Part shown: one piece after another, positions 1-59,087 of the stretch | How positions within the stretch are numbered: the stretch's first letter is position 1 | Layout: each line of letters opens with the position of its first letter | From: Scenedesmus sp. ARA3 | Lineage: Eukaryota; Chlorophyta; Chlorophyceae; Sphaeropleales; Scenedesmaceae | Length of the DNA: 64,000 nucleotides | Assembly: GCA_004335835.1 (NCBI GenBank) | Contig: RWJK01001672.1 | Span: 257,866 to 321,865, forward strand | Reading direction: 5' to 3' | The notes under the pieces: model-generated | Told to the model about the DNA's origin: nothing | What the model saw: the letters and a program-made list of their open reading frames with translations, nothing else | Databases searched by the model: none | Position numbers and translations under genes: made by a program

Positions 1-350
1 CAGCAGTATGCCAAGAGTTGGTTGGTGAACTAGGTGTTGATGTCCCAGGTGCGGCAGCAGCAGCGGCACCAGCAGCAGACACTCACGCTCACCCCATGCC
101 TAACGCGACTGCCAGTGACAGGTTGGCAGGCATGACAACACCAGCACAATGAGGCTCGAACGAGCAGCTGCCACAAATCAGAACAGAGCGTTAACTTAAA
201 GTGTAGCATCTGCAGCCAGTCTCACCCCATGCCTGGCGCGACAGCCAGTGGCAGGTTGGCGATGGCACCCATGAGGAAGCATGCCATGAGGGACGATGCG
301 GCAGTGGCGGTGATGAGGCTGCGGCGCACCTCTTGCTGCAGTGCGGGAGC

Positions 351-388
<38 letters not shown>

Positions 389-1719
389 CAGCAATAGTTG
401 CAAAGCAGGAAGCAGCAGCATGGCAGCATGCACAGCAGGAGAGGAGTGAGCCGGCTGAGCAGATGTGCAAGCAGATGTAACAACTGGATGCAGGAATAGG
501 CTCAGCAGAGGAGCGCTGCAGCCGGTACATTTCAAGGTGCGTAGATAAGCATTAACCTTGGTTCTCCTGTGTGAATTCATCCTTTGCTATTCCGCATTTT
601 GAACTGCAAGTGCTCGGCTGCGCCTGGCTCGACACTGTGACCGCATACAACAGACATCATAGCATATTGGTTGAAGCTGCTTTGCAGCGATATCCAGACA
701 AGCAATGCAGTATTTTGGTATTGATGCCTGCACAGCACAGCCAGCAAACAGCATAGCACGTGTACTCACCACACATGACTGGAAGCCTGCATCATCAAAC
801 CTGCAGCCTGGCTGCCCTGCTTTGGGACCCTGCAGCAGCAGCAGCAGCAGCAGCAGCACCAGCAGGTTTCAACAACCGTTTGACAGGTTTGTAGGGCAGC
901 AAACTCATGCAGCGCTGAGGAACAGCTGAAAAGCATACTGTGCAACTGCAGCAGCGCAGCAGCGCCGGCGCGGCTGTGCTATTTGCTTGGCTGCAACGTC
1001 TTCAGGCAAGCTATCCATGTCCAGCCGCTGCACAGCAACACTTGATCAGGTAAGAGCAGTGCTCGGCTTTTTCCCTTGTGCTTGCAAGGAGGGGCTTATC
1101 AAAGGCATCAGTGAGTAACAACAGCAGCTTGGAGCCAAAGATGCTGTGCATCCCACGTTTTAGGGGCAAGGGCAGTGCGAACATACCCCAGCTTACCGTG
1201 CAGTCAGCATCGCTGCAGTTGCCGCCGCTGTCACTGAGGATGCCGGCATTGACAGCAAGGATGTAACACGTCTGCAGAACAGCGATGAAACAGGCAATAC
1301 AGGCACGTGAGCCACGGGGACCCATGTGGCAGGTTTGAATTGCCGGACAACTTCGGACCACTGTGCTGCAACAATGGTGCAAATCAATAAGGCAACCAGG
1401 TATCATAAAAATGAAGGTTCACGCCCAGCTGCATGCCACCTCGAACAGGCTTTCTCTTTCCCCGCCCTGGCTTCGCTTCACTGGTCGACGCTGCTCACCG
1501 TCAGGAACGTCACGAGGCCAGCTCTGACCTCTGTAGAGAAGGTGCTGCCTCTTTGCTTGACTTGGAAGTACTGGCCCACCTGGCAGTGAGGAAGAAAAGA
1601 ACAGACGACAACCCTAGATCAGCCCAGGGCCCCATCTGCACTGCCAGCATGCACGTGGCTAGTAAATTCCATACCCTTGATGCGGCAAAACCGTCATTGA
1701 GCGAGTCGATCCACTTCAT
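1..1719 (-). CDS. AZG1-like: AZG-type adenine/guanine permease, N-terminal part (runs off left edge)
   Basis: Probable plasma-membrane purine (adenine/guanine/hypoxanthine) transporter of the NCS2/AzgA family. Start ATG at 1719. Five phase-consistent exons are visible: 1675-1719 ([15 protein letters not shown]), 1499-1579 (ends RAGLVTFLT), 1197-1271 ([20 protein letters not shown]...), 770-829 ([20 protein letters not shown]) and 226-335 ([19 protein letters not shown] then GMG). These match in order the family start: the ELRAG..TFLTMAYILAVN first helix, the SDSGG loop, and the ANLPLALAPGMG helix with its substrate-site region. About 124 residues of an expected 550-600 are present; the rest lies left of the window. 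The exon at 226-335 is preceded in the transcript by a CTG tract (CAG at 346-387 on +). A damaged copy of its 3' edge lies at 85-131. Family assignment is firm; substrate is inferred. Confidence 0.85.
85..131 (-). repeat. Degenerate copy of AZG exon 5 3' edge
   Basis: On the minus strand this reads approximately [15 protein letters not shown] followed by GTGAGC. It mirrors the end of the real exon ([14 protein letters not shown] then GTGAGA) about 105 bp away. It lies in the following intron and keeps a usable-looking donor. Confidence 0.7.
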
Positions 1720-4739: not shown

Positions 4740-4880
4740 GTCAGGGCTGGCGAGAGCGAGTCAGAGACGCAAGACGCCATGCTGACCAACCCAGTGTGGA
4801 AGCAGTCTGGCATGGCAGGGCTCAGCGCCAAAGGCAAAGTGCAGGTGAGCAGGGCTTTCCCCTGGCCACAGCAGCAGCAT

Positions 4881-4911
<31 letters not shown>

Positions 4912-7131: not shown

Positions 7132-7224
<93 letters not shown>

Positions 7225-8970: not shown

Positions 8971-9735
8971 CTACCTGCCTTGGGCTGTTATTGCTGGTGC
9001 AGCCGCTGGCTTGACTGCAGCAGCAGCACGAGGAGCAGCGTCTGCATTTGCAGCAGCTGCTGGTGCCTCTTTGGCCAATGCAGCATCAAGCCAGTGCAAC
9101 CTCGCAACTATCCATGTCCTCAGGTCAACCACACTCGCATTCCAAGCAGCAACGCCCTGCAAGCCAGGCGTAAACTGCACCTTGTCTGCTGCAAACGTTG
9201 CCCCCCAGCGAGCAAAGTTGCGGGCTGTTGCTGCATTGATGCGTGCAACCTGTGTGTCGATCTCGTTTGTGTACCAGCTGTCGCTCCAGCTGCTGTTGCG
9301 CAGCTGCTGGTAGCGGGCCTGGGCCTGGGCACGGAAAGACGGGCTGCGCCATAGCGCCAGGTACCACTGCAGCAGCACCGGGAGCAGCAGCAGCAGCACA
9401 ATCAGGCTTGCATTGTCAGCAACCTCATGCCAGCTGCAACCGCACATGTACAGCCAAATCACACTTGCGCCACTCACTGTCATGTGTTGGTAAGCACCAC
9501 TGCGGCACTCTGAGCACCGTGCAGGGTGTATAAGCACTCTGCTGTATTTCAAAATGCATTGCTGCTGCAAGCATTGCCGGCCCCGACTAACCTGCGCCAA
9601 CCCATTCAGCGGATCGATCTTGCAGCGGTGTGGCTCTGCGCAGATGTTGAACAGCCAGCCCTCAGGGCTGATGGCGCTGCCACCGCTGCTGCTGTTGCTG
9701 ACGCCGCCCGCCTGGTAGCCTGCACAGCAGGATCA

Positions 9736-9778
<43 letters not shown>

Positions 9779-11481
9779 TACGGCAAACATTGTGGTATGC
9801 GAACTGATCGAGGTGATCACCTCGCGTGCTGCAGCTGGCAGTTTTGAAGAACAAGTTTGAGCGATGACACAGCACAGCTGCCGATGTTAAGCAGCAGCAT
9901 CCACCGAATGCAATATCACTGCACGAGCTGCGCATGATTGCTTACACTCACCCTCTACAGGGAAGCCGCAGCACAGGCCCATTGCCTTTGCAGCATCCAA
10001 AGTGCTGTGATACTGCACTGAACCATGAAGATGAGCCTTGAGGCTACAGCAGAAACATGCATGAACACATATGTGCCATACATCCAAATGGCGCCAGCGA
10101 ATGGCTGCCCGTTACCCAGCTGGGTGTTAGTCGTGGGAGGCCACGTCACCACAAAACAAAGCATAATGCACACATAATACATCACATTTTCATGCTCACT
10201 TTCCACTGGGAAGCCGCAGCACAGCCCCATTGCCTTTGCAGCATCCCACACAGGACCCATCACCACCCGCGCACGGCCCGCTGAGCAGTAGTCCTCCACC
10301 CCATCAGCGGCTGACCCAGCAGCAGCAGTGGATGTGTTGCCAGCAGGACTGGCAGTAGATGCAGCGGTGCTTGCTGAGTCCCCGGTTGAAGGGCCCGCAG
10401 CAGCAGCAACAGCCGGGCTCGTCAGCGTGGTGGTGTTGGCTGCAGGCAGAGGCAGATGCAGACAAAACAAGATGCCAGATGCACTAGATATGACGACGTT
10501 CAGTGCCAGACATGGTGATGGTGCCAGCAGGACCTGAGGTGGGTGCAGCGGTGCTTGCTGGGTCCGCGGTTGAAGGGCCCGCAGCAGCAGCAACAGCTGG
10601 GCCATGAGAAGTGGTGGTGTTGGCTGCAGACACAGGCAGAGGCAAATCGCAGCAAAACACAAGGACGACACATGGGACACCCAGTTAGTGACTAACGATC
10701 ATTTTGATTGGCTCAGTTGGTGCTGAGCGTCTTGATGACCAGGAAGTGGTTGGCAGACAGTGCTGTGCGGTGTGCTGCACGTCACCTGCACTTTCCATTG
10801 TTGGCATACCAATACCAATACTAACACCACAGTACAGAACGGACCTGCCTCAGGCAAGAGCCCAGCGAGCTGATATACTGCTGCTCATGCCATGAGCTCA
10901 GGGAGGGTTGCAACCAGGACCCGCTTCCTCCCTCATTGCTTGCTTGCATACGACACGGTCGGCTGTCTGAGCCGGCAGCACCTGGGCCCCCATATGCCAC
11001 CATTGCTGCAGAGATGCAATGTTTTGTTGCAAGGCATGCAACGCTCACCTGCAGCAAGCGCTGTCAGCGTCCTTCCAGAAGAAGGTGCGGCCCCTGTAAC
11101 CGTCACTGTCCACACATTGCCTCCAACCAAACCCTGTTCTACATCATACGGTATGATTCATACCACACACAGCCCTCACCTACTGTGCATGCGCTGTCAG
11201 CGTCCTTCCAGAAGTATGTGCTGCCCCTGTAGCCGTCACTGTCTACAACTTGTCTCCACATCAACCCTTTTCTACATCATACCGCACACAGCCCTTACCT
11301 ACTGTGCACGCGCTGTCAGCATCCTTCCAGAAGTAGGTGCTGCCCCTGTATCCGTCATTGGCCGACTTGATGACCTCAGCAGCCAGGAAGAAGTCAACCA
11401 GGCTCTCAAGTGTCACATAATCACTGTAGTGGCCCAGGCCTGGGGCCAGCAGCTGCTTCTCAAAGGAGTTGAAGTAGCTGG

Positions 11482-11678: not shown

Positions 11679-11728
11679 NNNNNNNNNNNNNNNNNNNNNN
11701 NNNNNNNNNNNNNNNNNNNNNNNNNNNN

Positions 11729-13182: not shown

Positions 13183-13274
<92 letters not shown>

Positions 13275-14745: not shown

Positions 14746-14788
<43 letters not shown>

Positions 14789-16747: not shown

Positions 16748-19128
16748 CTAGCACTGCATCCTGCGCATGCACTTGATGGCGCAGCGTGCCCTGGCTCCCT
16801 GGCCAGCCGTCAGCGTGCGCAGGCACGTCTTGTCACCCTGCAGCAGCAGCAGCAGCAGCAGCAGCTTATGTAAACAATGCGTCCGATCCAAATTAGGGCC
16901 GCCATCCACTGATTGCATGCGTGTTCCTGAGCAGCGCAGTGAATCTTCAAGTAACGCCTTGTTTGGAGCTCTTTATGCATCCTCTGCCAAACATCAGCGT
17001 GGCGCCATTTAAACATACAAGGCAGCAGGTACATGCAAGGCTCATTCTCCAAGGCCCAGCACTGCAGCACTGTTCAACCCAAGTAGTGTCCACTCACGTA
17101 GCTCATCAGGTTGTTGAAGTTATTGAAGTAATTGCTGCCCTGGGGGAAGCCGACAGCAGCACTGCAGGACTGCTGCGCGTATGCCGTGGTGTTGCTGTAC
17201 GCGCCAGTCTGGGGGTTACAGTCCACAAAGCGCAGGATGTCTGTCACGCTGTTCCGTGTTCCGTTCAGGGACTGTGCCGGAGTGTCACGAACGCCGTCGG
17301 AACGCCCTGCAGTTGCAGGTGTGTGGAAGGAGCAGCAAGCACAGCATGACTTACGGAGGGCAACATGCGCTGCTGACACATGCAGCTTGGATCAGAAGCA
17401 GCTTGTATTGGCAGCAGTGGCACACACACGTCACCGGCTCTGCCACGTTCTGTGTAGTTTCCCTTAGCAGCAAGAACATAACCATAGTCAGCAGTAAGCA
17501 ACAATACAGCAACCGGCAACTGAGATAGCAATGTGAAATGTCAAACCAACTAAGCACACACCAACTCACCAGCAATGATGTCGGCAGGATGCGTGCTGGC
17601 GCTCATCTCGCACTGCTCCTGCAGCGAGGGCTTGCCGCCAAAGCGGCGCTCCTCGTACCAGGTGTGATGCAGCATCTGCGGGCGCAACAGCACATCACAA
17701 CCAGTAATTCTCAGTGTGATAGAACATAAAATGCAGCCATTTGCTGCTGCTGTGGCATCACCACATGACGCGCAACGCAGTGATGCCTGTGGAGCTGCTG
17801 CCTTGTACTCACCAGCTGGTGCCCAATCTCTTGTGCCTCATGAAGCATGAGTCATGAGACATCCAGCACAAACTGCAGTATATTTTAACAGCTGCACTGA
17901 GGTGCACCGCACTCACCAGCTGGTGCCCGATCTCGTGTGCAAGTGTAGCGCCGCTATCAGACAGCCCGCCATCGATCAGCGACCGCCCACCCAGCCCCGG
18001 CAGTGTCTTCTCATACAGGAACACCCTGCGGCCAGCAGGGCGCAAGCGGCAGACAGCAGACTCTCAGCAGCGATAATCATAACTGCAAGCAGCATGTGTG
18101 CAGGCACAGGACAACTCTGCGACCAGCTCGCAGTGCGAGTGCCACCAACAGCATCTGACTAGTGGGGCTCTTGAAGCATCACAAATGCGTCGTAAGGCAA
18201 GCCTCACCAGTTGGCGCAGCCTGGCATTGCTCCAGTGGTCATGTATGAGGGGTACAGCGTGACACCCAGTGATGTGCCGCTGCAGCAGTAAAATGGAACA
18301 AAAGAACATAGCCATATGAGTACACGGCGTTGTGAGCAGAGATGCACAGCCATGCCACTTGAGAAAGGACCAGGGCATCTAGCAGTGAGGATTGAGGCAA
18401 GATACAGGCTACTCATTGTATGGCTGCCAGCTTACTGCCATGGCATACATTCTGAACGGCACTACTCAACAGCAGTTCTGCCCTGCCAGACATTGCTGCT
18501 GCTGCTGCTGCTGCTGCTGCCACCACTTATTGTGCAACACAAGCTGTTGGAAAAAGAGCAGCTTCCAGCCTCTCACCCAAGATGAGTCGGCGCCGTCACG
18601 ACATTGATTGCCGCCTGGTCACCAAAGCGCTGCTGCTTGCATATCCAGCACCGTCCGCTCGGATCCAAGCACACATCAATGTCATTCGGCGAGCTTGCAT
18701 TCGCGTAATGCATCACGCCATCCCACTTGAACTGAATGCCAACATGCGCATACAGCCTGTTTACATAATCCACCTGCTCCTGCACAAGGTCTGCTGTGTA
18801 CCTGCCACCAGTGCAGTCGCCGCTGCGGCAAACCCTCCCAGCCGTCCAATATAACGGCAGTACAATAGGGTTTGCAGGAGGGCCTTGGTCTGCTGCCTGG
18901 CAAGCCTGCATTTGACTCTCTGCTTCTAGCTGCGTCTCTGCTACTGCTGCAATGCCAACACTGCCAGGGCCACCAGCTAAAAGCTGCAGCGGGTAGGGCT
19001 CGTGTGCGCCGCAGTCGTCTGGCTTTGCCTTGCGTGCGCTGGCTGACGCCGCTGCAACCGCTGCTACTGCAACACCAAGAGGGCTGCTTGAATCTGCTGC
19101 AACAGCAACCTTGGACTTGCGATTGTCA

Positions 19129-19167
<39 letters not shown>

Positions 19168-30532: not shown

Positions 30533-31263
30533 TTACATCACCATGTCGCCGTGCATCTTCCCCTCCCACTCCTGGATTTTTTCCTGGATGGTGGCCAGCT
30601 TGCCATCCAGGATCTCTATCGACTGCCACAGGATCTCCTTCACCTGGCGGCAGCAGCAGCATTAGTTTTATTCAGTACAAACGAATTTACGTTGCAGGTG
30701 CTGTTTGCCGCTGGTGCCCAGCGACACACTCGCGACTTGCACCGAGTGCTGTGCTTGCTACCATTTAGATTGGGTGTGCATCTGCCGTCCCTGCCTACCC
30801 ATGTTGCTGATGCTCCATGCTAACTTCGCCAGTGGCATGTTGCATCACCTTTCAACATGACCTCTTTTTGTAGGTGTGAGAAACACAGCATAACACCGCA
30901 GCTGTTATAACACATGTTATAACTCACCGGCAGCATGCCTGTGCCCTCCACCCTGAAGATGAATGTGTCCTGCCGCTGCTTGATGTCCACTAGGCCTGGC
31001 TTGCCCAGCTCGGCTGCCTTCTTTAGCACCTCCTCATCAAAGGCATACGCCTCGGGCTCAGGCACTGTCACCTGCGGTTTTAACATGACATTTGTAACAC
31101 GTGTTGTTGTTGATATTGTGACATGTGTTGCTGCAAGTTTGAAGGAAGGTGCACAGGATGCACAGTGCACTATGGCCGCTGCATTGCGCAGTACGCTAGC
31201 CATCCAAGTGGGATGCATTGCAAGGATTGGGTCACCGACAGGCTGGCCAGAACAGGTGTGCCC

Positions 31264-31306
<43 letters not shown>

Positions 31307-33122
31307 GTCGCACCTGGCGTGTGGCTGGGTCGTACTTGAAGGCGTTGCGCGTGGCGGTGTGCGGGTTGCTGTTGACAAAGTCCTGCTTCTGCTCCTCTGC
31401 AGGCGCACAGCAGACAGCACAGCAGACAGAAAGCAGGTCAAGGTTGCTGCGGTTCAGACACCATCAGCCAGTAACTGCATGCATCTAGTGTGCTTCTCTG
31501 CAGGTGCACAGCAGGCACCATGCACAGCACACAGGTCAAAGCCAACACTGCAGCTCGCGCCATGGGCATCAGCCGGTGCCATGTGACGTTGTGCATGCAC
31601 TTGCTGCTGCTGCTGCTGCTGCTGTGCAGGCGTAGAATGCAGAAGCAAACCCCAACAAGTCCATGAGTGCCTGGTTGATGCTGATGTCGGCCACATACTG
31701 GAACACTGCAGTGGCCACAGGGATCCACTTACACTGGCACACACAAACACACCCAAAACCTGCGGTCAACTGCGGTCAACTGCAGTCAACACCGCACCTG
31801 TGAGCTCGTCCATGAGCGCCTGGTTGATGCTGATGTCGGCCACATACTGGAACACCGCTGTGGCCACTGGGATCCACTTGGCGTGGTCCTTGCCGATGCC
31901 CTTGCGCGCAGTGGCGCGCAGCTTCACTTCCTGGTTGCGCCCCAGCTTTAGCAGCACCACTGCAAACATGCGGCAAGCAGGGTGCAAAAGAATCAAGCGA
32001 ACCATGAGATTTGAACCACGATGCGCGCAGCTTGACATCCTGGTTGCGCCCCAGCTTCAGCAGCACCACTGCAGGATTTGAATTGAGAGGCCGGGCGCAT
32101 GTAGTTAAATAAATCCAGTTTAAAATCGTAGTTTAGTAAATCCAGAGGAAAATGACAGCAATGGCGCATTCAAAATGGCAAAACGGCAGGCAAGACACAA
32201 TCAGTTTGAGGCGCGAGTGCGGTGCAGCTTCACTTCTTGGTTGCGCCCCAGCTTCAGCAGCACCACTGCATGGAAAACATTCGAGGGGATGAAGCGCAGG
32301 TCAGTTGGGTTGTGAAGCATTCACCAAGCCAGCAAGCCAGCAAGAGCGCCTCCTGGTTGCGCCCCAACGGTAGCAGCACCACTGCGGGGTGCCCTCCTGC
32401 TCCTGCTGCCTCCTGCTGGTGCGGCTGCGCCATCACATGCTCCACAAAGAACCCAACTCCACACAGCTGCTGCGGCCGCAGCTGCAGAGATGCCAGCCTG
32501 CCGAGACGAATGCCACACACCCCACCCGCCCACCTGGCTTGACGCTGCCGCCCTGCTGCTTCATGACCGCCTGCGTGACCGGCACTACGCTGTGGTTTGC
32601 ATCAGGGATGAGGTCCAGGTCTGTCACGCCCTGCTGCTTCTTCCCCTGCTGCTGTTGCTCCTGCTGCCGGTACTGCTGCTGCTGCTGCTGCTGCTGCTGC
32701 GCTACCGCTGCAGCTGTGGATGTGTCAGGTAACCCACCCCCCACCCCAGCCCTACCCCCACACCTACACAACGCCCACCTGGCTTGACGCTGCCGCCCTG
32801 CTGCTTCATGAGCGCCTGCGTGACCGGCACCACGCTGTGGTTGGCGTCAGGGATGAGGTCCAGGTCTGTCACGTCCAGTGAGCGGCCCTCGGTGCACTTG
32901 ACGTTCAGGCTGAACTCAACCTCTGAGCACTGCCCCTCAGCAAAGTCCTCGAAGGGGCGCACCATGTGCCTGACGCAGCAGCGGCAGCAGCAGTGTTGTG
33001 GGCGAAGCACAAGGGTTGGATGTAACGGCAGGGGTGCGGGGTGTGGGTTGTGGCAGGGTGATATGTGGCGGGTTGCAGGCGGCTGCTGGTCAGCGGCTAT
33101 CCTGTGCATGCTGCGGATTGGC

Positions 33123-33160
<38 letters not shown>

Positions 33161-33705
33161 GCAGGACAACAGATGAACACAGACGCAGCAGCTAATGCTG
33201 CAGATCCTGCTGCTGTTTGTGTGGCCACCTGCATCTGCTGCAGGCGTGCAGGTAACACACACGGGCCCAACAGTCTATGCTGCTGCAGCTGCGGCAGGCT
33301 CCACACTACGCCAGCACCAAGTGGGCAGCTAGTTGCGTTCACTACAATCATATAGCTGCTTCATGCATCAAACAACCATAAGCTTGCTGATATCTGTGCA
33401 CATGGTTTAGGCATGGGCGCTACTGCTGCTTTTGCTGCTGGTGCTGCTGCTCCTTACTTGGCAAAGTCCGATACCAGCGGGATCAGGCCCAGTCGGTGTG
33501 CTAGGAACTCATCGTTAAGCACCGATGTGTTGTTCTCAAAATCAACCAGGTCTATGGCGATCGTAGGAACTTCTGCTATCATTATGCGTCTAAGTGCGTT
33601 GGCCACGCTGGCGTCCGTATCGCTAAGGATGAACTCTGCATAGTCATCTTCTAGTTTCCTAATAGTGATCTTTGGATGCCGGTGGTTAGGCCGGTACGTG
33701 TCCAT
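30533..33705 (-). CDS. RPB3: DNA-directed RNA polymerase II subunit RPB3
   Basis: Core alpha-like subunit of RNA polymerase II that pairs with RPB11. Six exons, all phases consistent, 312 residues: 33458-33705, 32779-32969, 31798-31959, 31314-31396, 30928-31071, 30533-30643. Landmarks: start [95 protein letters not shown] then [47 protein letters not shown]; and a C-terminal helix [20 protein letters not shown]. The insert that usually carries four zinc-binding Cys is reduced to [14 protein letters not shown] with one Cys. Length is close to plant RPB3. Introns hold partial copies of exons 2 and 3. Confidence 0.95.
31670..32640 (-). repeat. Partial copies of RPB3 exon 2 and exon 3 edges
   Basis: Exon 3 (31798-31959) has 5'-edge copies upstream at about 32030-32073 ([14 protein letters not shown]), 32222-32268 ([14 protein letters not shown]) and 32345-32383 ([12 protein letters not shown]), and a 3'-edge copy downstream at about 31670-31735 ([20 protein letters not shown] then ALMD). 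Exon 2 has a 3'-edge copy downstream at about 32534-32640 ([20 protein letters not shown] then [12 protein letters not shown]) with a GTGGGC donor identical to the real one. Confidence 0.9.
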
Positions 33706-34516
33706 GGCTGTGGCGGGCAGCAGCAGCAAGGCACAGCACTACAGCAGCAGCAAGTGCATCAGCATGATTGCCTTCCCTCGTAAGTCAGCGCCCAACCACT
33801 TGCTGCTTTGTGTCAACGATGCACGAACAAACCATGACTGCTGCTGCTCAAAGCAGTGCTTTAAAGAGTGAAGAGTGAGCAGTGACAGTCATATTCTGTT
33901 GTGACGAGCGTGGGATGGGTTCAAACGCTTCTAACAGGCAGCATCTTTGCCTTCAGCACACTTAGAGGTCTGTCGGTAACAAGTTGCTTGCGAAATTCTT
34001 GCACTTACCTCGCAATGTTTTCTCACAGTGCACACTATGAACATCTGACACCTTCAGCACGTGGCTGTCAGGTTATCCAACTCCAACCCTCCAGCCTTTT
34101 GGAATACTTCCACATTCACACCAACTGCATGCAGTCACCAACCACACCAATCAGCTACTCAAGATTGCGTCGTGTGGCGCTGCCTGCTTGGGCTAGTGGT
34201 CAGTGTGCCAACAACGCCCCAAACATTCATGGTCTTCTTGTACCTGTTAGCCATATCCTTCGGCATTGCCCAGGAGGCTACCCAGCTGAACTGGCTGGTA
34301 GGCCACTGGCAGCGAGCTGCTGCTTCCTAAACCAGATCTGAATCAGACCTTAGCAACCACATCACAAGCCAACAGCAGGCTTAACATGTGAGACACTGTG
34401 CATTGCCGGCGGCCTGCACTTTAGCAACCATATCACAAGCCAACAGCAGGTTTCACATGCGAAACACTGTACATTGCCTGCACTTTAGCAACCATATCAC
34501 CAACCAGCAGCAGGCT
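33706..34516. other. Intergenic; RPB3 upstream region and a tandem repeat
   Basis: Upstream of RPB3 (minus) and downstream of the alanine-racemase-like gene (minus). A plus-strand open stretch near 34160-34320 looks partly hydrophobic but matches nothing I know. The tandem repeat at 34350-34545 occupies the right end. Confidence 0.5.
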
Positions 34517-41719: not shown

Positions 41720-44700
41720 TCAAATCTCAACGGGTACACAAGTAACATTGCCTGCTAGGGAGCCGATGCTAGGCTCATTGCGTAGGAAAAACAACACCAA
41801 GAGACACCACTCACTGGGTGGTGGCGACGGTGATGGCACTGCAGCAGCAGGTGAAGTTGAAGGCATGACAGCGGGAGATGCAATGGGACTGGGCGAAGGA
41901 CTTGGCGCTGTCACCAGACTCTTCAGCAATTGCACAATGCGTGCATCACACAGCCTGAAAGGCCCCCTGCTTGCTGCTGACAGCTTGCGCGCAGTGCCCA
42001 GGTTTGAAGCGACAAGGTCTGCCAGCACATCAGCCTTGCGTAACCGCATGCCTGGTGATACGGCTGCTGTGTCAGCGAGGGCGGTCAAGTCGTCCATTAG
42101 CTTCACCAGCCGCTGCGGCTGCTGTGGTGTGTACAGCAGGCAAGCTGACTGACTGCTGGATTCAAAGGCCAGGGATAGCTTGAGTTGCTGTCTGATTTGC
42201 CTCGCACGCGCGAGGGGGTTGGCCCTATTGTACTGCAGCGCAAATGTGTAGTCTGGCTGCATAAGGTTGGCGGCTCCATAGGCAGCTCTGAACGAGCCGC
42301 CGAGGCCCCAGTTCGGTCCCCAGCTGCAGCAGAACAGCCAGGACAAAATGCAAGGTTCAAAACAGGAGCACGGCTGGGTTCACTGCTGGACATGAGCAGT
42401 TCGATGTGCAATTGTCTGACATCCTGATTGGAAGAAAGGAGATGCTGGAGTATATGTTGCAGAGGCGCAAGCTGACTCAGCAGATGCAACAGCAAGCTGA
42501 CTCAGCAGATGCAACAGCAAGCTGACTCAGCAGATGCAACAGCAAGCTGACTCAGCAGATGCAACAGCAAGCTGACTCGGCAGATGCAACAGCAAGCTGA
42601 CTCAGCAGATGCAACAGCAAGGTGACGATGACAGAGGGGTTACATGGTGTGTGCATGCGGCATGCGCCACCACTAACACCTGTTGAAATAGGTAGCTGCA
42701 AGCAGCTCAGCTCAGGCTGTCACTCTGAGGTTCAACCCCAGGCAGATATAGTGTGTCCTGCAATCCACCTGTTTTTGCACAGCCAGTACCCGTCGTTGGC
42801 ATCTGACATGTTGTCCCACCATCCGTAGCAGAACACAGCGTGCATGGACAGATCGCCTCGTGCGGTGTCCCGCAGGTCTTCGGCCACCCCAAAGACCCCG
42901 TTTGAAGACGTCTTGTGTTCCACGAAGGCGCTGAATGCGTTATTTGACAACGCCAGCGATGTGATGACCCCTCCGTTCAGCATGATCTGCTCCTTCACCT
43001 GTGCCATTGTGGCAAGAGGGTTGCCGCTGTATGCCATGGAGAGGGCGCCGCCTGCCAGAACCAACAAAATGAAAATCTTGAAGTAAATTTCAACGAACGT
43101 GGAGCCACATAATGTCAACAGAAGGTTCTGCATTCAGACTTCAAGCAAGCATGTTTGTCTACCTTTGGGGGGCAACTTCCACTGGGATGGCAAAGGGTGG
43201 CATTTCCCTCTGTTGCCAGGGTGGTGTTTGTATGTGTGTGGATGCGGCATACAACACTGCTCTGACACCTGGTGTGTTTCAAGGCACAGCACACAGCTCA
43301 GCGCAGCATTCACTCCTTCACTTCAATTCAAAGCCGCTCACCTGCCGGCAGCTGTGACGCGCAGCACTGTGGGGATCCGGCAGGGCAGCTGTCACTGACA
43401 GCAATGCAGCTGGCAGCAGTTGGGTCGCCACTGTAGCCGAAGCAGCTGCGTGCCGCCCACCTCTTGATGCGGTTCTCATTGATGTTTGCTACCACAGTTT
43501 GATATGACGCCCCAGTTGCGCAGCTGACCTTGGGCTCCAACCTGCAGAGCAGCACATGTTACATCTCATGTCACACCAGCCAATCTGCCAGCTCAGTCAG
43601 CAGCCCGCAGCTGCCCTGCTGCGTACATTTGACTGCCGCCTGCAGCTGTACTGCCAGCTCATCACACTGCCCACATCTGTAGAAGCTGAGGTTCTGCTCT
43701 GGCGGGCCCAGCGTGTCTGTCTTGCTGGTATTTTGAGAATGCAGTTTCGTCTCATAGCCACAACGAAACAGGTGACAATTTTACTGCGGTGCGCCATGTT
43801 GAAAAATGAAGTTTTGATTTATATAATTTCAACAAATAAGACAGCAGCTGCTGCTCACCTGCAAAAGCTGAGGTCGTGCTCTGACAGGCCCAGCTTGTCT
43901 GTCTTGCTGGCATTCTGAAAATGCAGTTTTCTTTCATAGCTACAACATGCCAGGCAGCAGCTGCTGCTCACCTGCAAAAGCTGAGGTCCTGCTCTGACAG
44001 GCCCAGCTTGTCTGTCTTGCTGGTATTTGAAACCTGCAGTTTCCTTGATGACACTTCAATGTATAAGGCAGCAGCGCCTGCTCACCTGCAAAAGCTGAGG
44101 TTGTGCTCTGACAGGCCCAGCTTGTCGGTCTTGCTGGTATTGTGAAAATAAAGTTTTTCTTCATAGCTGCCACAAACCAGGTAGCAGCGCCTGCTCACCT
44201 GCAAAAGCTGAGGTCCTGCTCAGACAGGCCCAGCCTGTTCCAGTTCTGCCGCTTGTACACGTTAATGGCAGCCTCAGCAGCAGCAGTGACAACAAAGCCC
44301 ACGCAAGCTGAGCATGTGTCTTGGTTCTGCAGCAGCAGCAGCAGCAGCAGCAACTTGAAGGCCGGCGCGTGCAATTTGCCCCAGCTCTCCTCTTCAATGG
44401 GGGTTCAGTACTGTGGTTTAGACATAGCGCAGTTGCGCACTGTAACACGGCCGTACTGCAACACAGTACCGCACCGCAGCTGTACAGATGTATATTACAT
44501 CAAAATGTGTCTTGTGCCTCCTTACCTGTGCAGGGCTTATGAAGGCGCGCTGGTTTGGCGTGTCTGCAGTGCTGTTGGACGAATAGCTTGCAGGCATCAG
44601 CGTCAGCAGCAGCACGTCCACACACTCCGAATCCGTGACGTCATTTTTGTTACACGCCGCCTGCGCGATCTGTGTTATGTTTGCGCCTGCGCCCAGGTTT

Positions 44701-45641
44701 CTCAGAATGCTGGATCTGCCCCTGCTGATTAGGTACCCGCGCTTGGTGGCGTTGGGTGGCGAGCGGAGGCCCTCTCCAGCATACACTAGGCCAGTGAAAC
44801 GGCTGTGAGGGCGGCAGCAGCAGCAACAGCAGCAGGTGCAAACAAGGCGTTGGGTGGCGAGCGGAGGCCCTCTCCAGCGTACACTAGGCGTGTGAAACGG
44901 CTGTGAGGGCGACAGCAGCAGCAACAGCAGCAGGTGCAAGCAACGGCAACGGCAGTCTTGCAATGAACCACGGCAGCTTGCTCATTGCAATCGCTAGGTG
45001 AATAACGAGGTACTGTGATGCCTCTGCACAGTGAAGCGAATGTAGGTATACTGCTGCGCATGCGTTTCCCAATGCAGGTGATTTTGAATTGACGCTACCA
45101 TCTGTGACAACCGCTGTCTCGAGTCACTGCCTGACAGCACATATGTACACAGTCAGCGTGTTGCTTCAAGGCTGAGTCAGCATGCTCACCCGCCAGGTAA
45201 CTGCAGCAACCGCCGCTCTGGCGGCCTGAGGCCTGCAGCATGGCACAGCAAGCAACACGCGGCGCACACGTAACACAATGACAATGGACAATTGCAAGGA
45301 AGAAGAGTGATGTATAGGGATGCGGAGATGAAACTAAAGTTCATGCTCAGCGCGCGATGGGGCTCCAAGCACGTCTAGAGCTGAGCTTTTGAGATGTCAG
45401 CAGCATGAGATACCACCATGGTGCTGCCTGTGCAGGCACTCTGCTGCTGGCCAAACCCTGTACAACCATGCATACCTTGTGATAAGGTGCTTGGGTCCGG
45501 AGCAGAAGCCACACAGGCCGACAGCACCAGGCAAGTTAGCAGCGTCGTCCCTGCAACAGCAGCAGCAGCAGCAGGTGATCACAATGGGTGTTTCATTACG
45601 TGCTGTATAGCCAGCTGGGCATCCTGCCGATGCCTGCGGCG

Positions 45642-51255: not shown

Positions 51256-51477
51256 TGTTTGAGACAGCCTGCCGGCAGCGCTGCACACACACGCAAATCT
51301 CTCAGCCCGTCACTGCTGCTGCTGCTGCTGTTGCTGCTGAGCCCATCACAGCACCACAACCCCAGCTGCCGACAGCTGCAATGCACATGCGATGTGAGCA
51401 GCTGTCCCGGCAGCCACCTGCCTGCAGGCAACCATCGTCGGCACCATCCGCACACCAGCTCAATTGCCAGCATCAGC

Positions 51478-51700
51478 CCTGGCCTTTGCCGGCCTAGTTA
51501 GACGACTTCTTTTTCTCGCACTGCGCTGCACGACTGTTTGACTTGTCCTTGGTGCTTTCTAGCAGCAGGTCAAACACCAGCCATCAACAAAAGCCACACA
51601 AACCACCCCTGGCCTTTGCCGGCCCAGTTTGTGCTCTTCTTCTTCTCCCGCTGCGCTGCACGACCAAACTTGCCGTTGGCGCTCTCTAGCATCAGGCCAC
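51478..51700 (-). repeat. Two downstream copies of the CWC27 last exon
   Basis: About 51606-51695 reads [20 protein letters not shown] then TNWAGKGQG; about 51478-51570 is a worse copy with an internal stop. They repeat the real end at 51746-51840 ([20 protein letters not shown] then TNWAGKGQG) at roughly 130-150 bp spacing. Confidence 0.9.
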
Positions 51701-51745: not shown

Positions 51746-52315
51746 TCACCCCTGGCCCTTGCCGGCCCAGTTTGTTGTCTTCTTCTTCTCCCGCTGCGCT
51801 GCACGGCTGAACTTGCCCTTGGCGCTTTCTAGCAGTGGGTCAAATACCACATAGTCGTCCAGGTTGTCGCTGCGGTCCATGGCGTCACCAGGGGCACGAG
51901 AGAACTCCAGCCTGCACAGCAGCATGCACAGACGGCAGCAGCAGCAGCACAGCTGAAGAACTTTTGAGGTAGTAAGCGACACAAGTCGCTGCGGCCCATG
52001 GCGTCACCATGAACTCCAGCCTGCACTGCAGCATGCAGAGGTGGCAAAGCTAGCTCAGAACACTGTGCCAAGGTGACAGGGCAGCAGCTTGCACCAGAGA
52101 GTGGCTGCGGTCCATGGCGTCACCAGGGGCACGAGAGAACTCCAGCCTGCACGGCAGCATGCAGAGATGGCAGCAGCAGCGGCAGCAGCATGGCTCAAAA
52201 CAGGTTGCCGAGGTAGTGAGGTAGTGACGTGCGCTGGGTTGGCAGCAGCAGCAGCAATGCGTCACCAGGCGCACCCAATCACTGCAGCCTGCGCAATTGA
52301 TCAAGAAGAGGTGGA

Positions 52316-52351
<36 letters not shown>

Positions 52352-52666
52352 AGCAGTAGCAGCGGCGGCGGCGCAGAACTCAGAGCTGTGTCCTGAGGTA
52401 GCAACAGGTCAGATCGCCCCAGCTCCAGAGCAGAACAGGCCAGGCATCACCACAGTAACACAGAGAATAACACAGTGACTCACTTGTGCTGCCTCAGGCT
52501 TGCCAGGTCATCCTCGCCCTGCCCCTCCCCTTCTTCGTTGAGGTAGGCATCCACGCGCCACGCCGCAGGCATGTAGGAGCGGTGGTCGATGTCCTCACGC
52601 ACCTGGTGGTTGGTTTGGGGAACAGCGTTTTGAAATAAGGACGCACAGCAGCAGCAGCAGCAGCCT

Positions 52667-52713
<47 letters not shown>

Positions 52714-52944
52714 CTCAATGAAATGCTTGCACACAACCAATGCGCAGGTGCCAGGATGCGATAATGTGCCAGCGGCAGCCGCCAAAATACTTGGCCCAGG
52801 GCGCAATACTAGCTCAGCAAAAGCTTCAGGGTCTTGCAGGACAAGCACAAAACACATGCTGCATCCTGCAGTTGCAGTTGGTCGGTGTGCAACAGTATCA
52901 TATGCATATCAGCAGCACTACGCACCTTGCCATCATACGCCTCA

Positions 52945-52982
<38 letters not shown>

Positions 52983-55770
52983 TGCTGCTGCGTTGCTGCT
53001 GTCAGCAGGTGACTTGCTCTCCTGCTGCTGCTTCGCCTCATCGTCAGCTGCTGCTGCAGCCTGCTGTTGCTCCTCTTGTGTTTCCTCCTGCTGCTTCTGC
53101 TGCTGCTGCTGCTGTGATGTCCGCAGCTTGCTAGTGAATGCAGCCAGCCGAGCCATGGTGTCCTTCTGGCGGTTGCCAACCTGCACACAGCAGCGCGCAG
53201 CAACCAGCAAGAACTTCACTGCGCCGCACTCCACCGCATAGCACAGCACATCAGGTCTGCACCAAGGAACGATGCCAAACCCTCAGCAATGAGTACAAAT
53301 GCGAACGCGGATCCAACACACGCTACTCTGGGTAGGCACCGGCCTGTTTGTAGTCCTCTGCATAGGCTTGCATGGCTTGCTGAGCGCGCTGCGCTGCGCC
53401 CACCTGCTGCTTGCGCATCTCATACTTCTGCGCCCAGCTGCTGTAACACGAAGCATTGTATGCAGCATGCATGGCTCAGAGCGGCATGCTGCAAGGCATG
53501 CTGATAGCGCTGTGCGCCCTGCCGCACCTGCTGCTTGCGCGTCTTGTACTTCTGCCGGCTGAGCTCAAAGGCCTTCAGCAGCTCCCCATCAGCCACAGCA
53601 TCACTCACGCGCACCCTGCAGCAGCACAGCCATAGATGCATTGTCAGTTGTTGTGCACAGCATGAAGCACCCTACAAGCTGCCAGCCAGCCAAGGCATCT
53701 CTCACACGCTCCCTGCCGTTGAGGAGCGCAGGGCAGCAACACATGCGCTGTGAGCCAAAAACACAGCATGCACAGACTGTCCAGCAGCGCCCCGTTCAGC
53801 AGCAGCAGCAGTGAATGCTGGGCTGTCTGCAGCTCTCATATCAATGCAGTGTTTGATTGGGACATGCACATTGGACTGCAACCCCCGTGTCCGTATCAGC
53901 GCTGCACAAGACACAAGCTGCTGCTAGCGTCTGGTGCCAAAAATGACGGCAAAAAATGACAAACGAAATGACAACCGACGCACCTGCCAGGGCCCTGCTT
54001 CTCCTTCATTTGGTACAGCTCATCTTCCTTGCTAGCAGGCTTCGCTGCTGCTGCTGCTGCACCGCCCCTGCTGCCCCTCCTGTCCCTGCTTCTACTCCTG
54101 CTGCGGCTTCTGCTACTGCTGCCACCGCCAGGTGACCGCCTGCCCCTGCTCCTGCTCCTGCTTCTGCTGCGGCCGCGACCTGCATCACCAGCTGCTGCTG
54201 CTGCTTCCCTGGCGGCCCGCGCGCTGCTCGCTTTGTCCGCTGCTGCCCGTACGCGCTCAGCAACCATTGCTGCAGCACCGGAGGCGCCCTTGCGCGCTGC
54301 TTTGCGACCTGCGCCATCTTCATCGCTGCTGCTGCTGCCGTCGTCGCTGTCGTCAGCATCTCGCGCACGCTTGCCCCCTGCAGCAGGCGAGATCATCCAT
54401 GGTCACTTTCACCTCATTTGTAATGGCTGACAGCACAGTTGTTGTCATCACACAGCCAAGCCAGCACCCATATATGACTCCCAAACACAAGTATGGTCAA
54501 GGCCTTGCCTGCTGCGCCTGCTGCCTACAGCTTGTCGTGCACCGCGCTAACTGCTGCAGCCCGCACTTTTTCCCCCGCAGAACTATTCCAGCCATCAGCA
54601 GCCACAACTACTGCATTGTCATCTGCTACTGCTCCTCATGCGCCCAACCAACCCAATGCGCCTCAGCAACACAAACATACCTACAGCACCCTACAGGCAC
54701 CCGCCCGTACACACAATTTTTTTTTGACCAGAACTAAATTGCTATGGCTTGATAGGTGATTCATGATGAACCAGAGCCTCACCTGCTGCACCTGCTGCCC
54801 GCAGATTGTCCTGCACGGAGCTGACTGTTGCAGCGCATGCCTCTGTGTCCAAAAACAAACCAGATTTCTCAAACACGGCCGCACCTGCTGCCCGCAGCTT
54901 GTCCTGCACGGAGCTGACTGCAGCAGCGCGCGCCTCCCTCTCCCACAAACACAAACCAAATTGCCACAAACACAAACCAATCAACCAGAGCCTCACCTGC
55001 TGCGCCTGCTGCCTGCAGCTTGCTCACAAATACAAACCAAATGGCCACAAACAACAAACCAGATTCTCACACAGAGCCGGACCTGCTGCCCGCAGTTTGT
55101 CCTGCACCGCGCTGACTGCTGCAGCGCGCGCCTCCCTGTCCCGCAGCACATCCTCTGGTGTCTCCTCAGGCGGCAGCAGCGAGGCGTCAACACCCCTCAA
55201 CACCTCATGCGCCGACCTGCACCGAGTAAACATACACAGCAGAGAGCAGGGGTCGATACAGACGTGAGCAGGGAAGACGACAGCAGCAAAGCGTCCACAC
55301 CCCGCAGCACCTCAAAGTTTGCCAGCGAGACATGACATGCATGTTGGAGAGCCGAGGCACCTGCCAACACAAACACATGTGTTCAAAGGCAGCATGGTTT
55401 CTGCCAGTCATGAACGGCAGGTGTGGGAGATGGCGCGGCCTCAGCGCAAAAACACCCATTGACACCAGCTTGCTGCAGCACACATGCCGCCAAACAAGCA
55501 TGCCACCCAGCCGGCAGCATGCCACACGCACCTGATCTTGGCTGGCGCTGCTGCCGCCTCCTCCTGCTGCTGCGTGTCCTGGCCAACATAACAACCGAGC
55601 AAGCACACCGAAAAGCGACCAACACAGCATGCAACCTGCTTGCACCCACTTGATCTTGGCTGGCGCTGCCGCCACTGCCTCCTCCTGCTCCGCGTCCTCC
55701 CCAAAGCTGAGCAGGGCCAGGTTGCGCTTCTGGCCCTTGCGGGACTTGCGCACCTCCGACGCCTTCCTGT

Positions 55771-55805
<35 letters not shown>

Positions 55806-57066
55806 AGCGGAGCGACTCAGCATGGCAACTTGGATGTCAGCAGCCAAGTGCGCACATGCAAAGGTACTACTGCCCTGCTTTTGGTCCTTATTCTCCTCCT
55901 GCCCTTGCTCCAGCCAAGCTTATTGTTAACAACGACAATGGGCACGGCTGGCAGCTGCCTCACATGAACTGCTCCTGTGCGCGGCGCTCCGCTGCTGTGG
56001 TGCGCGGCACGATGTCCTCAAAGGGGTTCCACAGCACCTCCACCCCGGTGATGATTGGGGGGTCAGTTGGCCTGTCAGTCTCCTCATCAACCTGCAGCAT
56101 TGTGCAGCGCAAGCAGCAACGCGTAGCAGATCAGCTCGGGTTGGGTTTTGAGCAGTTGTGGGCGGGAAGCGCAGCGCCCCTCAACCTCGGCACAGCAGTG
56201 CAGGCAACAGCCACTTTGTCACCTGATGATGCTCATCCCACAGCTCTGGTTCAATCTGTGGCCCACGATATCATACTAGCCAGAAGAGTAGTGTTATCAG
56301 CCCATGCACAGTGCAAAAACAGATGACAGAGCCCTGCTTGTGCAACCGCCGCACCTCCAGCTCGTTGAGGCGCAGCATGTTGTGCACTGTGCTGCCCAAG
56401 ATACTGCACATTAGCATGCCGGCCAAAACCCCAACCCACGCACAGTGCAAAACCCTGCTCGGCCGTTGCCGCACCTCCAGCTCGTTGAGGCGCAGCATGT
56501 TGTACACCGTGTCACCCACAATCTTGCCAAAGATGGTGTTCTTCTTGTCCAACCAGTCACACCTGCGCCAGCAGCAGCAGCAGCAGCCGCAGCGGCCTTC
56601 AACACAACACGCATGTCTCCAGACACAACCTGTAGATCAGCCGGCACGATGGTTGCAACCACAGTGCTACAGCAGCACCACGACAGGCCGCCTGCTTTTC
56701 ACAGCAGCCCGAAGCAACACGTGCAGGATATAACAGTTGTAACACGATGTAAGCCTTCCCGCAGCTGTTCCAGCACTTTCCAGCGTGATGATGAGCTGAC
56801 TGCCGCTGCTGTGCGACTTGTTGGCACACTTTGCTGGACGAGCAATGCATGAAACATACACTTTTACACGACAGAGCACAACACACATTTTTATCAACAG
56901 AACCAAATCAAAACCAGCCGCTCACTTGTCGAGCGTGATGAAGAATTGGCTGCCGTTGGTGTGCGGCTGGTTGCGGTTGGCGCAGGCCACCAGCCCGCGG
57001 TGGCTGAAGCGCAGCCGGCTGTGGAACTCATCCTTGAAGGGCGCGCCGTAGATGGAGTCGGAGGCT

Positions 57067-57111
<45 letters not shown>

Positions 57112-59087
57112 AGAAGTCAGCTGATATACATTCACATGCGGGGTGGTGAAGCGCAGCCGGCTGTGGAACTCGTCCTTGAAGGGCGACCCATAGATGGAGT
57201 TGGAGGCTGCAGCACAAGCCAGCACAATAAGAGTAGAATGAGTATGCGCAACATATGCCGCGGCGGCTGCCGCCGTGCTCTGATGAAGCTGCAGTAAGGT
57301 CACATCAACCGCAGCCGGCTGTGCAGGTCGACCGCAGAAGAAGCGGTGTATATGGATTTGGAAGCTGCAGCAGCAGACAGCACACCGACTATCACACAGC
57401 AGCAACAAGACACGCCACGCCGTGCTGACACACACAAGCATTTATGGCTGTAGCCCCAGCATTCTCCCTACTGCACAGGCAGGCGCAAATGATGAGCAAC
57501 TAGCCAACAAAGGCTACTGCCACCTGCGCTCCATGCTCGCAGTGTGAGCGCACTCACTGTCTCCCGTGTTGGTGGGGTCGCCAGTCTGCTTCACTACAAC
57601 ATACAATGCAACTGTTACACTCAAGCCAAGGCCACGGGCCGGCCACGCACTGTTTCCTGCTTTGATGAAGTTTCCTGTCTGCATAGCTGAGACGTACAAT
57701 GCAACACTTTGACTCACTGTCTCCCGTGTTGGTGAGGTCGCTTGTATGCGCCACTACACCATGCGATGCAGCAGACAAGCTCAAACCACTCGCTGTTTCC
57801 TGTGTTGGTGGGGTCGCCCGTCTGCGCCACTACACCATGCAATGCATAGCTATTAAGCAATACTCAATTTCAGGACACAAGCCAGGCACTCACTGTCTCC
57901 CGTGTTGGTGGGGTCGCCCGTCTGCGCCATGAAGTCCTTGATCACGCGGTGGAAGGCGCAGCCCTCGTAGTAGCCCTCAAGGCACAGCTGCACAAAGTTG
58001 CGCACAGCCTGGCGGCAACGGCAGCAGCACGTGGACAAAGAGGCTTAGTATCACCTTGGTGCAGAAGGCAGCTATTCAGTTAAGCCAGAGCCAAGCTGCT
58101 GCTGACACATGCCCTGGCCCATGGTGCTGACAGCGCCATACCCCCCACACACACCATCGCATGGGCACCAGTGGCTGATTATGTGCCAGGTGCAGCAGCA
58201 TGCACTGACAGCCACGACACTTGGTGATCAGGGCGCAGGCAGCTGAGCATTGCTGATTGCTGCCCGCAGTCGCTGATGATGTGGGCACCATGGGCAGCAG
58301 CGTGCACGGACAGCCATGTTGTGGTGCGGCCGGCTGCACATTGCTGAGTACTGCCAACAAGTGGGCAAGCATGGAAGCACTCGAGATCCAGCATTTGCCA
58401 GCAGAGTGGCGGCGCTGTGTGCTTGCAGCAGTGGCAGGTGCAGAGCAAGCTGCTTGCTGCAGGCGCTGCTACTGCCTCCTGCTGCTGCTGCTGCTGCAGG
58501 ACTCCTGCAGCAAGGCATGCTTGTGCTGCCGCTATGCTGCTCGCCCACTGATGTTACGACCGTCGTCAGACATGCCAGCGTGGCAGAGATAAATCTTGGC
58601 TAGCTGCCCAAGCGCACAGCAGCGTGTGCGCTGAGGAATCCAGTTGCTGGCTGTTTCTGCGCTACCGCGGCCGCCCGCTGTAGCTGCTGCCGCTGCTGCT
58701 ACTGCTGCTGCTGCTTGGCCAATTGTTGCCGGCCTGCTGCGCATCAAGTATTGCCACATACACAGCTGTGAGGTGCACACCTTTGGCGCCTCTTTTGGCC
58801 ATAGCTCAATGTCCAGGTCACCAATTGTGGTCTTCAACGACACCTATTAATAGCACCACAACCAGATACTTTGTTAGAATACAAGTTGCAGCAGCAGATA
58901 ATTGGAGTATGAAAGAGGCAGCAGCAGCTCTAGCTGGAGGCAGTGCTGCAGCTGCGGCTGTGCCGGGTGAGTAGGAGAGTCCACCTTTCACTACTCAACT
59001 ACAAGTGCCCGAGCATGGACAACTGAACTGTATGCAGATGCTTACCTTGCCCTTCGTTGGGGGCTCGGTGTTGTAGACGGTGGACAT
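51746..59087 (-). CDS. CWC27: Spliceosome-associated cyclophilin CWC27
   Basis: Peptidyl-prolyl isomerase-fold component of the activated spliceosome. First eight exons with consistent phases: 59046-59087 ([14 protein letters not shown]), 58781-58843 ([20 protein letters not shown]), 57894-58008 ([20 protein letters not shown].., GDPTNTGD), 56926-57064 ([29 protein letters not shown]), 56475-56562 ([20 protein letters not shown]), 55964-56091 ([19 protein letters not shown]), 55650-55766 ([20 protein letters not shown]) and about 55080-55216 ([20 protein letters not shown]). The C-terminal part uses exons near 53990-54390 (an RS-like stretch), 53500-53620, 53325-53445, 52925-53181, 52483-52605 and 51746-51912 ([23 protein letters not shown]). 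Cyclophilin core plus the LLSFGEEAEE and C-terminal Lys-rich motif are diagnostic. The RS block is extra compared with the human protein. Many exon edges are duplicated in the introns. Confidence 0.92.
51990..52160 (-). repeat. Upstream copies of the CWC27 last-exon 5' edge
   Basis: At 52090-52150 the minus strand reads [14 protein letters not shown], as in the real exon (about 51870-51912). A shorter copy lies near 51990-52025. Each is preceded by ctgcatgctgc(tg/c)-type text and an acceptor. Confidence 0.8.
54780..55216 (-). repeat. CWC27 exon 8: repeated edge [19 protein letters not shown]
   Basis: The real exon 3' half ([20 protein letters not shown]) recurs at about 54880-54950 ([14 protein letters not shown]) and 54785-54855 ([17 protein letters not shown]), spacing about 110-190 bp. 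A minor copy of the exon front (EVLRGVDA) lies upstream near 55270-55320. Confidence 0.85.
56330..56475 (-). repeat. Copy of CWC27 exon 5 3' edge (NMLRLNELE + donor)
   Basis: gccgcacctccagctcgttg occurs at 56469 (real exon end) and 56349; each is followed by aggcgcagcatgttgt. The minus strand reads [10 protein letters not shown] with a GTGCGG donor in both. Confidence 0.9.
56926..57370 (-). repeat. Three copies of CWC27 exon 4 5' edge
   Basis: Real exon starts at 57064 ([19 protein letters not shown]). Upstream copies begin near 57208 ([20 protein letters not shown]) and 57366 ([19 protein letters not shown]). All three follow a CTGCAG acceptor. Confidence 0.92.
57545..58008 (-). repeat. CWC27 exon 3 3' edge: three to four extra copies with donors
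   Basis: The edge [11 protein letters not shown] followed by GTGAGT (real end 57894) recurs downstream near 57790 ([10 protein letters not shown]), 57718 ([11 protein letters not shown]) and 57557 ([13 protein letters not shown]), with a further relic near 57645. Spacings are about 75-160 bp. Confidence 0.9.

Follow-up and report, generated by a model that had tools for sequence, protein, structure and literature searches.

Why do introns of a green alga carry extra copies of the ends of their neighbouring exons, splice sites included? The question was raised by a stretch of 64,000 nucleotides from Scenedesmus sp. ARA3 (C1274:257866-321865, hereafter the window), for which the initial annotation had reported such copies in at least eight genes and proposed a genome-wide rule, acceptor copies lying upstream of the real exon and donor copies downstream. 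Here, we followed the copies over a larger part of the same contig, and at loci on six other contigs. They are real, they occur beyond the window, and they probably result from frequent tandem duplication of units of about 120 bp, with later decay, in a T. obliquus-like nuclear genome.

Exon edges are copied into the adjoining introns

The sequence sampled was C1274:97866-338006 (240,141 bp, including 1,083 N), from the assembly containing the window (87.27 Mb, 1567 contigs). Coordinates are window positions, negative values or values above 64,000 being on the same contig beyond the window. Exon edges were predicted with a simple gene finder, trained on the 19 exons of two genes of the window, RPB3-like and CWC27-like. 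Among four settings, recovering exactly 15, 16, 18 and 15 of the 19 training exons, the one with 18 was adopted. It yielded 169 introns of 60-1500 nt, hence 338 predicted exon edges, and a copy was counted when it scored at least 44 in the intron adjoining the edge. The second sample consisted of chaperonin genes on the six other contigs, with 140 exon edges. Predicted coding sequence amounts to 15.8% of the 240 kb; for T. obliquus, PMC5966456 gives 15.7% coding, a mean intron of 462 bp and a GC content of 57%.

A copy was found at 41 of the 338 edges of C1274, namely at 21/169 3' edges and 20/169 5' edges, and at 11 of the 56 edges of introns inside the window. At the chaperonin loci, 48 of the 140 edges had one. 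Two of these six loci had been picked because a family search hinted at copies, and 27 of their 54 edges were positive; the remaining four gave 21/86, with one locus at 0/18. Controls were close to zero: no inverted edge copy was seen (0/338 on C1274, 0/140 at the chaperonin loci), and copies in unrelated introns numbered 0/1010 and 1/518, respectively. As to position, introns never held a copied far edge of the adjoining exon (0/144, C1274 exons of at least 160 nt), so that acceptor copies lie upstream and donor copies downstream, as first claimed. No copy took in an entire exon and its two splice sites, apart from an apparent case at -14801 and short units in an array at 43667, both described below. 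Edge copies were present on six of the seven contigs examined. The phenomenon extends beyond the window, but a copy is not detected at every edge.

The C1274 counts are approximate, because the gene finder took 2 of 21 manually curated copies for exons (32534-32707 and 54885-54917). As a consequence, a copy of RPB3 exon 2 is absent from the 41, and one edge counted as real (54885) is itself a copy. In the two training genes, the three non-matching exons were these two copies and one shortened first exon. A self-trained version was dropped, its accuracy falling to 14/19 with more copies taken for exons.

Repeats detected independently of gene models gave the same orientation. When the window was compared with itself, 63 direct matches at distances of up to 1 kb were found. 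Over the 240 kb, at spacings of 50-1000 bp, 146 matches were direct and 2 inverted, the commonest spacing being 100-150 bp (58 matches), and the chaperonin loci had 123 direct and 0 inverted matches under 1000 bp. Templated insertion was rejected on this near absence of inverted copies. Matches of at least 50 bits formed 72 clusters, covering 9.5% of the 240-kb sequence. The nearest edge copy lay at a median distance of 119 nt (interquartile range, IQR, 105-149) on C1274, and 128 nt (IQR 113-143) at the chaperonin loci, in line with the 75-190 bp initially given. In the spacing histogram, a second rise was visible at 220-280 bp, and several edges carry 2-6 copies. Extra splice sites are indeed left behind: the splice dinucleotide was preserved in 31/41 (C1274) and 42/48 (chaperonin) nearest copies, and lost in 10/41 and 6/48.

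Copies in the RPB3-like and CWC27-like genes

These two genes were curated, and their 17 introns plus 600 nt past each last exon were searched with a sensitive scan. Altogether 21 copies were found, two of which derive from the CWC27 coding end, with 80-98% identity in the exon part; in 15 of the 21, the match reaches the exon end exactly.

The RPB3-like gene (30533..33729, minus strand, 99% to T. obliquus OEZ85_002929) has exons at 33729-33458, 32969-32779, 31959-31798, 31396-31314, 31071-30928 and 30643-30533, placed by protein match and joined translation, the start of exon 1 being set from the match to protein P0001. The composite protein is also 99% identical to P0001 (320 aa, from a 2,440-base contig). 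All copies are on the minus strand. The 3' edge of exon 2 is copied 245 nt downstream (32534..32631, 95% identical) with a GTGGGC donor. Three copies of the 5' edge of exon 3 are found, all upstream and each with GCAG: 32023..32068 (93%, TGCAG in front), 32211..32265 (89%, TGCAG) and 32351..32381 (90%, CGCAG). A further downstream copy from near the 3' edge of exon 3 (31659..31730, 94%) stops 10 nt before the donor, which is not copied. By protein search, RPB3 is one locus in the assembly, besides distant matches on C935, and therefore its copies do not come from a second retained locus; in the search at the DNA level, 40 of 200 candidates were scored.

The CWC27-like cyclophilin gene (51746..59087, minus strand, 98% to T. 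obliquus OEZ85_002925) has 13 exons. From the RPB3 and CWC27 matches, the alga is probably T. obliquus or a very near relative. Copied 3' edges are those of exons 3, 4, 5, 7, 8 and 10, and copied 5' edges those of exons 4, 8 and 13, again all on the minus strand. Exon 3 has three 3' edge copies, at 57794..57829 (94%, GC replacing GT), 57718..57753 (89%, GTGAGT) and 57558..57589 (97%, GTGAGT). For exon 4, a 5' edge copy (57139..57206, 90%) keeps a CTGCAG acceptor, and a diverged 3' edge copy (56779..56823, 80%) has no GT at the donor position. The 3' edges of exons 5 (56355..56391, 95%, GTGCGG donor), 7 (55533..55586, 83%) and 10 (53404..53431, 89%) are copied once. Around exon 8 we found a diverged copy of the 5' edge (55275..55314, 82%) and three copies of the 3' edge, at 54885..54947 (90%), 54792..54850 (86%) and 54518..54564 (87%, with an in-frame stop). 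The 5' edge of exon 13 is copied at 52101..52146 (98%), where the preceding intron is similar too (flank 84%), and a short 25-nt copy at 51985..52009 (96%) begins 21 nt into that exon. Finally, the coding end of the gene, which has no splice junction, is copied at 51604..51691 (91%) and again at 51473..51579 (81%).

Extent of the duplicated unit

Exon and copy are about 0.9 identical as far as the splice site, against about 0.4 past the splice signal, and the match stops at the splice site in 30/41 and 37/48 nearest copies. Background-level flanks in most RPB3 and CWC27 cases had suggested that the copies were exon-only pieces. This reading was dropped after a segment test on more edges, in which the intron half proved homologous in somewhat over half of the edges tested (52/86 at p≤0.05, 39/86 at p≤0.01). 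At 66552, 2.5 kb to the right of the window, the exon part and the intron part are both identical between copies, and this pair is a fresh whole-unit duplication. Duplication thus probably involves whole units, whose intron half is the first to become unrecognisable; for the remaining 34 edges, where no homology was detected, this is an extrapolation.

The copies are diverged, as had been noted, by 7-9% in the exon part. Exon divergence is no simple clock, because it stays at this level irrespective of whether the intron half can be aligned. Gaps are also far fewer in the exon half than in the intron half. Why the exon half changes so slowly is poorly explained; the best candidate is gene conversion.

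Duplication is not specific to splice sites

Among 23 predicted coding ends, where no splice site is present, 4 had a downstream copy, CWC27 being one of the four; among 25 predicted starts, one had an upstream copy, at threshold score. The copying of coding ends, which lack splice sites, shows that the process is not confined to splice junctions. Nor does the orientation call for a special cause, because a tandem duplicate spanning a junction preserves the protein only with its outer copy in use. A special splice-site rule is therefore not supported.

The initial annotation had also called for a comparison with random tandem duplication. In the 240-kb sample, 37 of 50 genic clusters contained an exon-to-noncoding copy, against 24.8 ± 3.4 under random placement within predicted genes, and the exon edges are enriched in this sense. 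The excess over random genic placement is 1.5-fold, and 2.3-fold among contiguous repeats. Partial-unit clusters gave 31/39 against 20.0 ± 2.9 under random genic placement, and placement over the whole contig gave 43 of 72 clusters against 17.7 ± 4.1. Exon-derived sequence may simply be recognisable for a longer time, which could produce part of the edge excess; such retention does not suffice for the stronger excess among contiguous units, and some bias to exon edges remains.

Pairs of coding copies are fewer than under random genic placement: matches fully coding in both copies were 1/88 (6.7 ± 2.5 expected), and those with some coding sequence in both were 11/88 (22.9 ± 3.8 expected). Such a depletion is what purging by selection would predict. 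In a set of 108 matches, 31 had no predicted coding sequence within 30 nt. They were not counted as proof of noncoding arrays, because at least 9 of them are copy-copy pairs or lie beside missed exons (six rows of the 43667 array, 32027, 57552 and 9947).

Fate of the copies

If a constrained exon is copied and the copy decays freely, a ratio of non-synonymous to synonymous differences per site (pN/pS) of about 0.5 is expected, provided that all sites are equally mutable. Between exon and copy, we obtained 0.31 (0.21-0.44) for the 41 best copies of C1274, with 96 synonymous and 78 non-synonymous differences; when all copies were included, the ratio was 0.27 on C1274 and 0.21 at the chaperonin loci; copies compared with one another gave 0.37. 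Assuming synonymous sites to be about 2.4 times more mutable would roughly reconcile these values with free decay. Synonymous divergence was 0.178 and 0.180 between exon and copy, and 0.175 between copies.

Stop codons were not clearly depleted in the copies (7 against 9.1 expected). Indels in multiples of three were 75 of 343, a total inflated by permissive gap costs that extended alignments into unrelated sequence. Under stricter gap costs, 19 gaps in 3018 columns and 29 in 4260 were found, fewer than in the intron halves and poorly predicted by free decay. The third-position bias had suggested coding copies; stop and indel counts, as well as the weaker bias between copies, speak against them, though not decisively. 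Judged from sequence, we saw no evidence of copies in use, proteins P0001 and P0121 containing every exon once. Nor was there evidence of introns created by copies, although no survey aimed at intron gain was made. The idea that the copies form a stock of alternative exon ends thus finds no support in stops, indels or these two proteins.

Origin of the copies

How could such copies arise and persist? Very often, units measuring some 90-180 bp, with a mode at 100-140, would be duplicated head to tail, be it inside introns, at the ends of genes or over exon junctions; replication slippage or the repair of staggered nicks would presumably be the event at the DNA level. The repeats are direct and of this size on six of seven contigs, and coding ends are copied as well. 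A unit lying inside an exon would alter the protein and tend to be purged, and coding-coding pairs are indeed fewer than under random genic placement. A unit spanning a junction would be tolerated, as the outer copy, contiguous with the exon, could keep working; we infer that this outer copy is always the one used. The inner copy would then become intron, leaving acceptor copies upstream and donor copies downstream, which is the arrangement observed. With time it would decay, its intron half becoming unrecognisable earlier than its exon half; homology of the intron half is still detected in just over half of the edges.

Several observations weigh against this account. The pN/pS values below the 0.5 of free decay lean towards constraint. 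Similarity often ends sharply at the splice site, which would also fit copying bounded by splice sites, and so would the 34 of 86 edges where intron-half homology was undetected. Exon-part mismatch hardly depends on whether the intron half is alignable (0.074 and 0.075) or not (0.088 and 0.080). For clusters made of contiguous units, 12 of 19 fell at exon edges against 5.2 ± 2.1 at random, and retention alone is insufficient to explain them. With the whole-contig null, the depletion of matches with coding in both copies is not clear (11 against 15.2 ± 4.5). At one of the 41 edges (-98905, from the L008 array), the intron part is 0.02 diverged and the exon part 0.093, the opposite of the rest. 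Finally, the greater length of introns with copies (median 435 against 284 nt, p=1.6e-7) counts in favour of this account, but longer introns also simply give copies more room.

In a stronger proposal, tandem duplication across junctions would be a main engine of intron growth, biased to edges, with exon halves held alike by local gene conversion; we consider it possible, but doubtful. Gene conversion or unequal exchange keeping exon halves alike while intron halves drift is an equally tentative addition to tandem duplication, with which it is compatible. It would account for an exon part at 7-9% mismatch regardless of intron-half homology, and for synonymous divergence being nearly equal between exon and copy and between copies. 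However, such equality is expected even without conversion, the copies of the 43667-44238 array share differences from the real exon, and conversion alone leaves pN/pS below 0.5 unexplained.

The remaining explanations are all improbable. If selection maintained the copies for a function, as alternative exon ends or as regulatory decoys, the pN/pS of 0.21-0.37 and the GT or AG kept in most of them would be understood, but not the stops that are not clearly depleted, the indels that do not come in threes, the splice dinucleotide lost in 10/41 and 6/48 nearest copies, or P0001 and P0121 with each exon once; this makes a functional role unlikely. Quite unlikely too is unequal exchange with a diverged second haplotype or homologue, in which intron halves would already have differed when joined. 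Synonymous differences exceed non-synonymous ones (96 and 78 in the 41 copies), 34 of 86 intron halves have no detected homology, and PMC7955037 describes a relative, Scenedesmus sp. NREL 46B-D3, as likely diploid. Yet RPB3 is a single locus besides the distant C935 matches, several edges have 2-6 copies, and this origin would not predict a unit of about 120 bp. A process linked to splicing or RNA, copying exactly the exon edge, is suggested by the matches ending at the splice site (30/41 and 37/48) and by the edge excess among contiguous units; intron halves homologous in 52/86 edges, and the 4/23 coding ends copied without splice sites, make it very unlikely. Least probable of all is an assembly artefact, from echoed or mis-joined reads. 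Two N gaps do exist in the window (11679-11728 and 35843-36746), but the copies are diverged, direct and often multiple, their unit size is narrow, and six of the seven contigs examined have them. Tandem duplication with later decay therefore remains the explanation that we favour.

Other copies and repeats in and near the window

Support for the eight genes named initially was uneven. Besides RPB3 and CWC27, established on curated exons, repeat alignments support copies in the CotH region and in the gene labelled AZG. In the latter, a putative exon 3' edge at 221-260 is copied at 88..127 (minus strand) with a GTGAG donor. The CotH region, with a Pfam match at 9088-9366, has a copy of 10195-10246 ending at GTGAG (9947..9998, minus strand), and a copy of 11306-11363 near a donor (11054..11111, minus strand, 88%). 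Pfam scans were run on three minus-strand frames, about 5999-35997 and 38499-61398, where the domains detected include CotH, RPB3, DnaJ, MIT, RCC1 and cyclophilin. No peptidase family was detected in these frames at E 0.01, M43 and C1A being labels of the initial annotation. The genes called phosphatase-like and C1A were not located. The Rfam scan of the window gave nothing above gathering cut-offs.

The two genes labelled M43 (12063-15092 and 17089-19938) are diverged tandem paralogues about 5 kb apart, with two well-aligning exon pairs 82% and 77% identical. Of the copies claimed for both, one was recovered in the second gene, a 24-nt copy (17813..17836, minus strand) in which the 3' edge of predicted exon 18025-17917 recurs. 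The first gene had no copy at score ≥36, and just one repeat, 71% identical. A copy in only one of two paralogues is consistent with continuing gain or loss.

An array with periods of 113 and 227 bp occupies 43667..44238 (minus strand). It comprises an exon end and three copies with TTTTGCAG directly followed by GTGAGC, plus a further degenerate unit. There, the self-trained gene finder sets zero-length exons, and the layout resembles recursive splice sites. At 44748-44943, a 98-bp unit is doubled exactly head to tail with 95% identity; the adopted gene model places no coding sequence within 30 nt, other scans extend coding to about 44802-44816, and the pair may be another young edge duplication. 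Outside the window, a whole short exon is apparently copied at -14801, as judged by eye.

Other repeats are of a different kind. At about 1021-1512 in L008, there are 138-bp tandem repeats in which differences are concentrated at one codon position (20, 3, 4), and this array, the source of the edge at -98905, is possibly truly coding, rather than made of decoys. At 35743-36746, a 19-bp unit is repeated 5.3 times at 100% identity directly before the N gap of 904 bases, and the assembly may not give its true copy number. The window is also rich in GCA/CAG triplet runs, including in introns beside exon copies, which may speed intron divergence.

Significance and comparison with known systems

If the sampled density holds genome-wide, the genome would abound in natural pairs of nearly identical splice sites about 120 bp apart, and the choice of the spliceosome between two similar sites would become directly testable. 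A possible way for introns to grow would also become open to measurement. Under the stronger proposal above, some one in eight to one in three edges would have a near-identical decoy, which the spliceosome would have to pass over for the outermost copy. Many stages of decay would moreover be available for studies of tandem duplication close to junctions, which has been proposed as a source of new introns. For annotation, a warning is in order: copied exon ends pass for exons, as 2 of the 21 curated copies did in our gene finder.

Our best explanation is an event known in kind, but present at an unusual density. As the initial annotation had supposed, no description of exon-edge copies at such density was present among the literature matches listed. 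Introners are mobile families inserted at dispersed sites, and are genome-wide makers of intron sequence. The algal copies would likewise represent intron sequence produced genome-wide, but they adjoin their source.

With mutually exclusive tandem exons (PMC9741552, PMC9013439), too, copies of exon sequence lie side by side in a single gene. These are however whole exons used in mRNA, whereas the algal copies are mostly of one edge, with no sign of use. Another comparison is with the Rogers/Hellsten model presented in PMC4974935, in which an intron is gained when an exon segment containing AGGT is duplicated in tandem, and of which a proto-splice-site version is given in PMC2891723. In that model as in the alga, a tandem duplication in or near coding sequence yields extra splice sites. 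The difference is that the model duplicates exonic sequence only and creates a new intron, whereas the algal unit spans an existing junction and its copy lies within an existing intron.

An event of the kind that we propose is known from the potato RdRp gene, in which Ma, Lan and Niu (2016, PMC4974935) report a tandem genomic duplication across an intron-exon boundary; the same article also mentions an 83-bp duplication within an intron. The duplication crosses an intron-exon boundary in both organisms. In potato it gave rise to a new intron and inserted a piece of exonic sequence, whereas in the alga the inner copy is inside an existing intron, and the potato gene is one case, compared with 41/338 and 48/140 sampled edges here.

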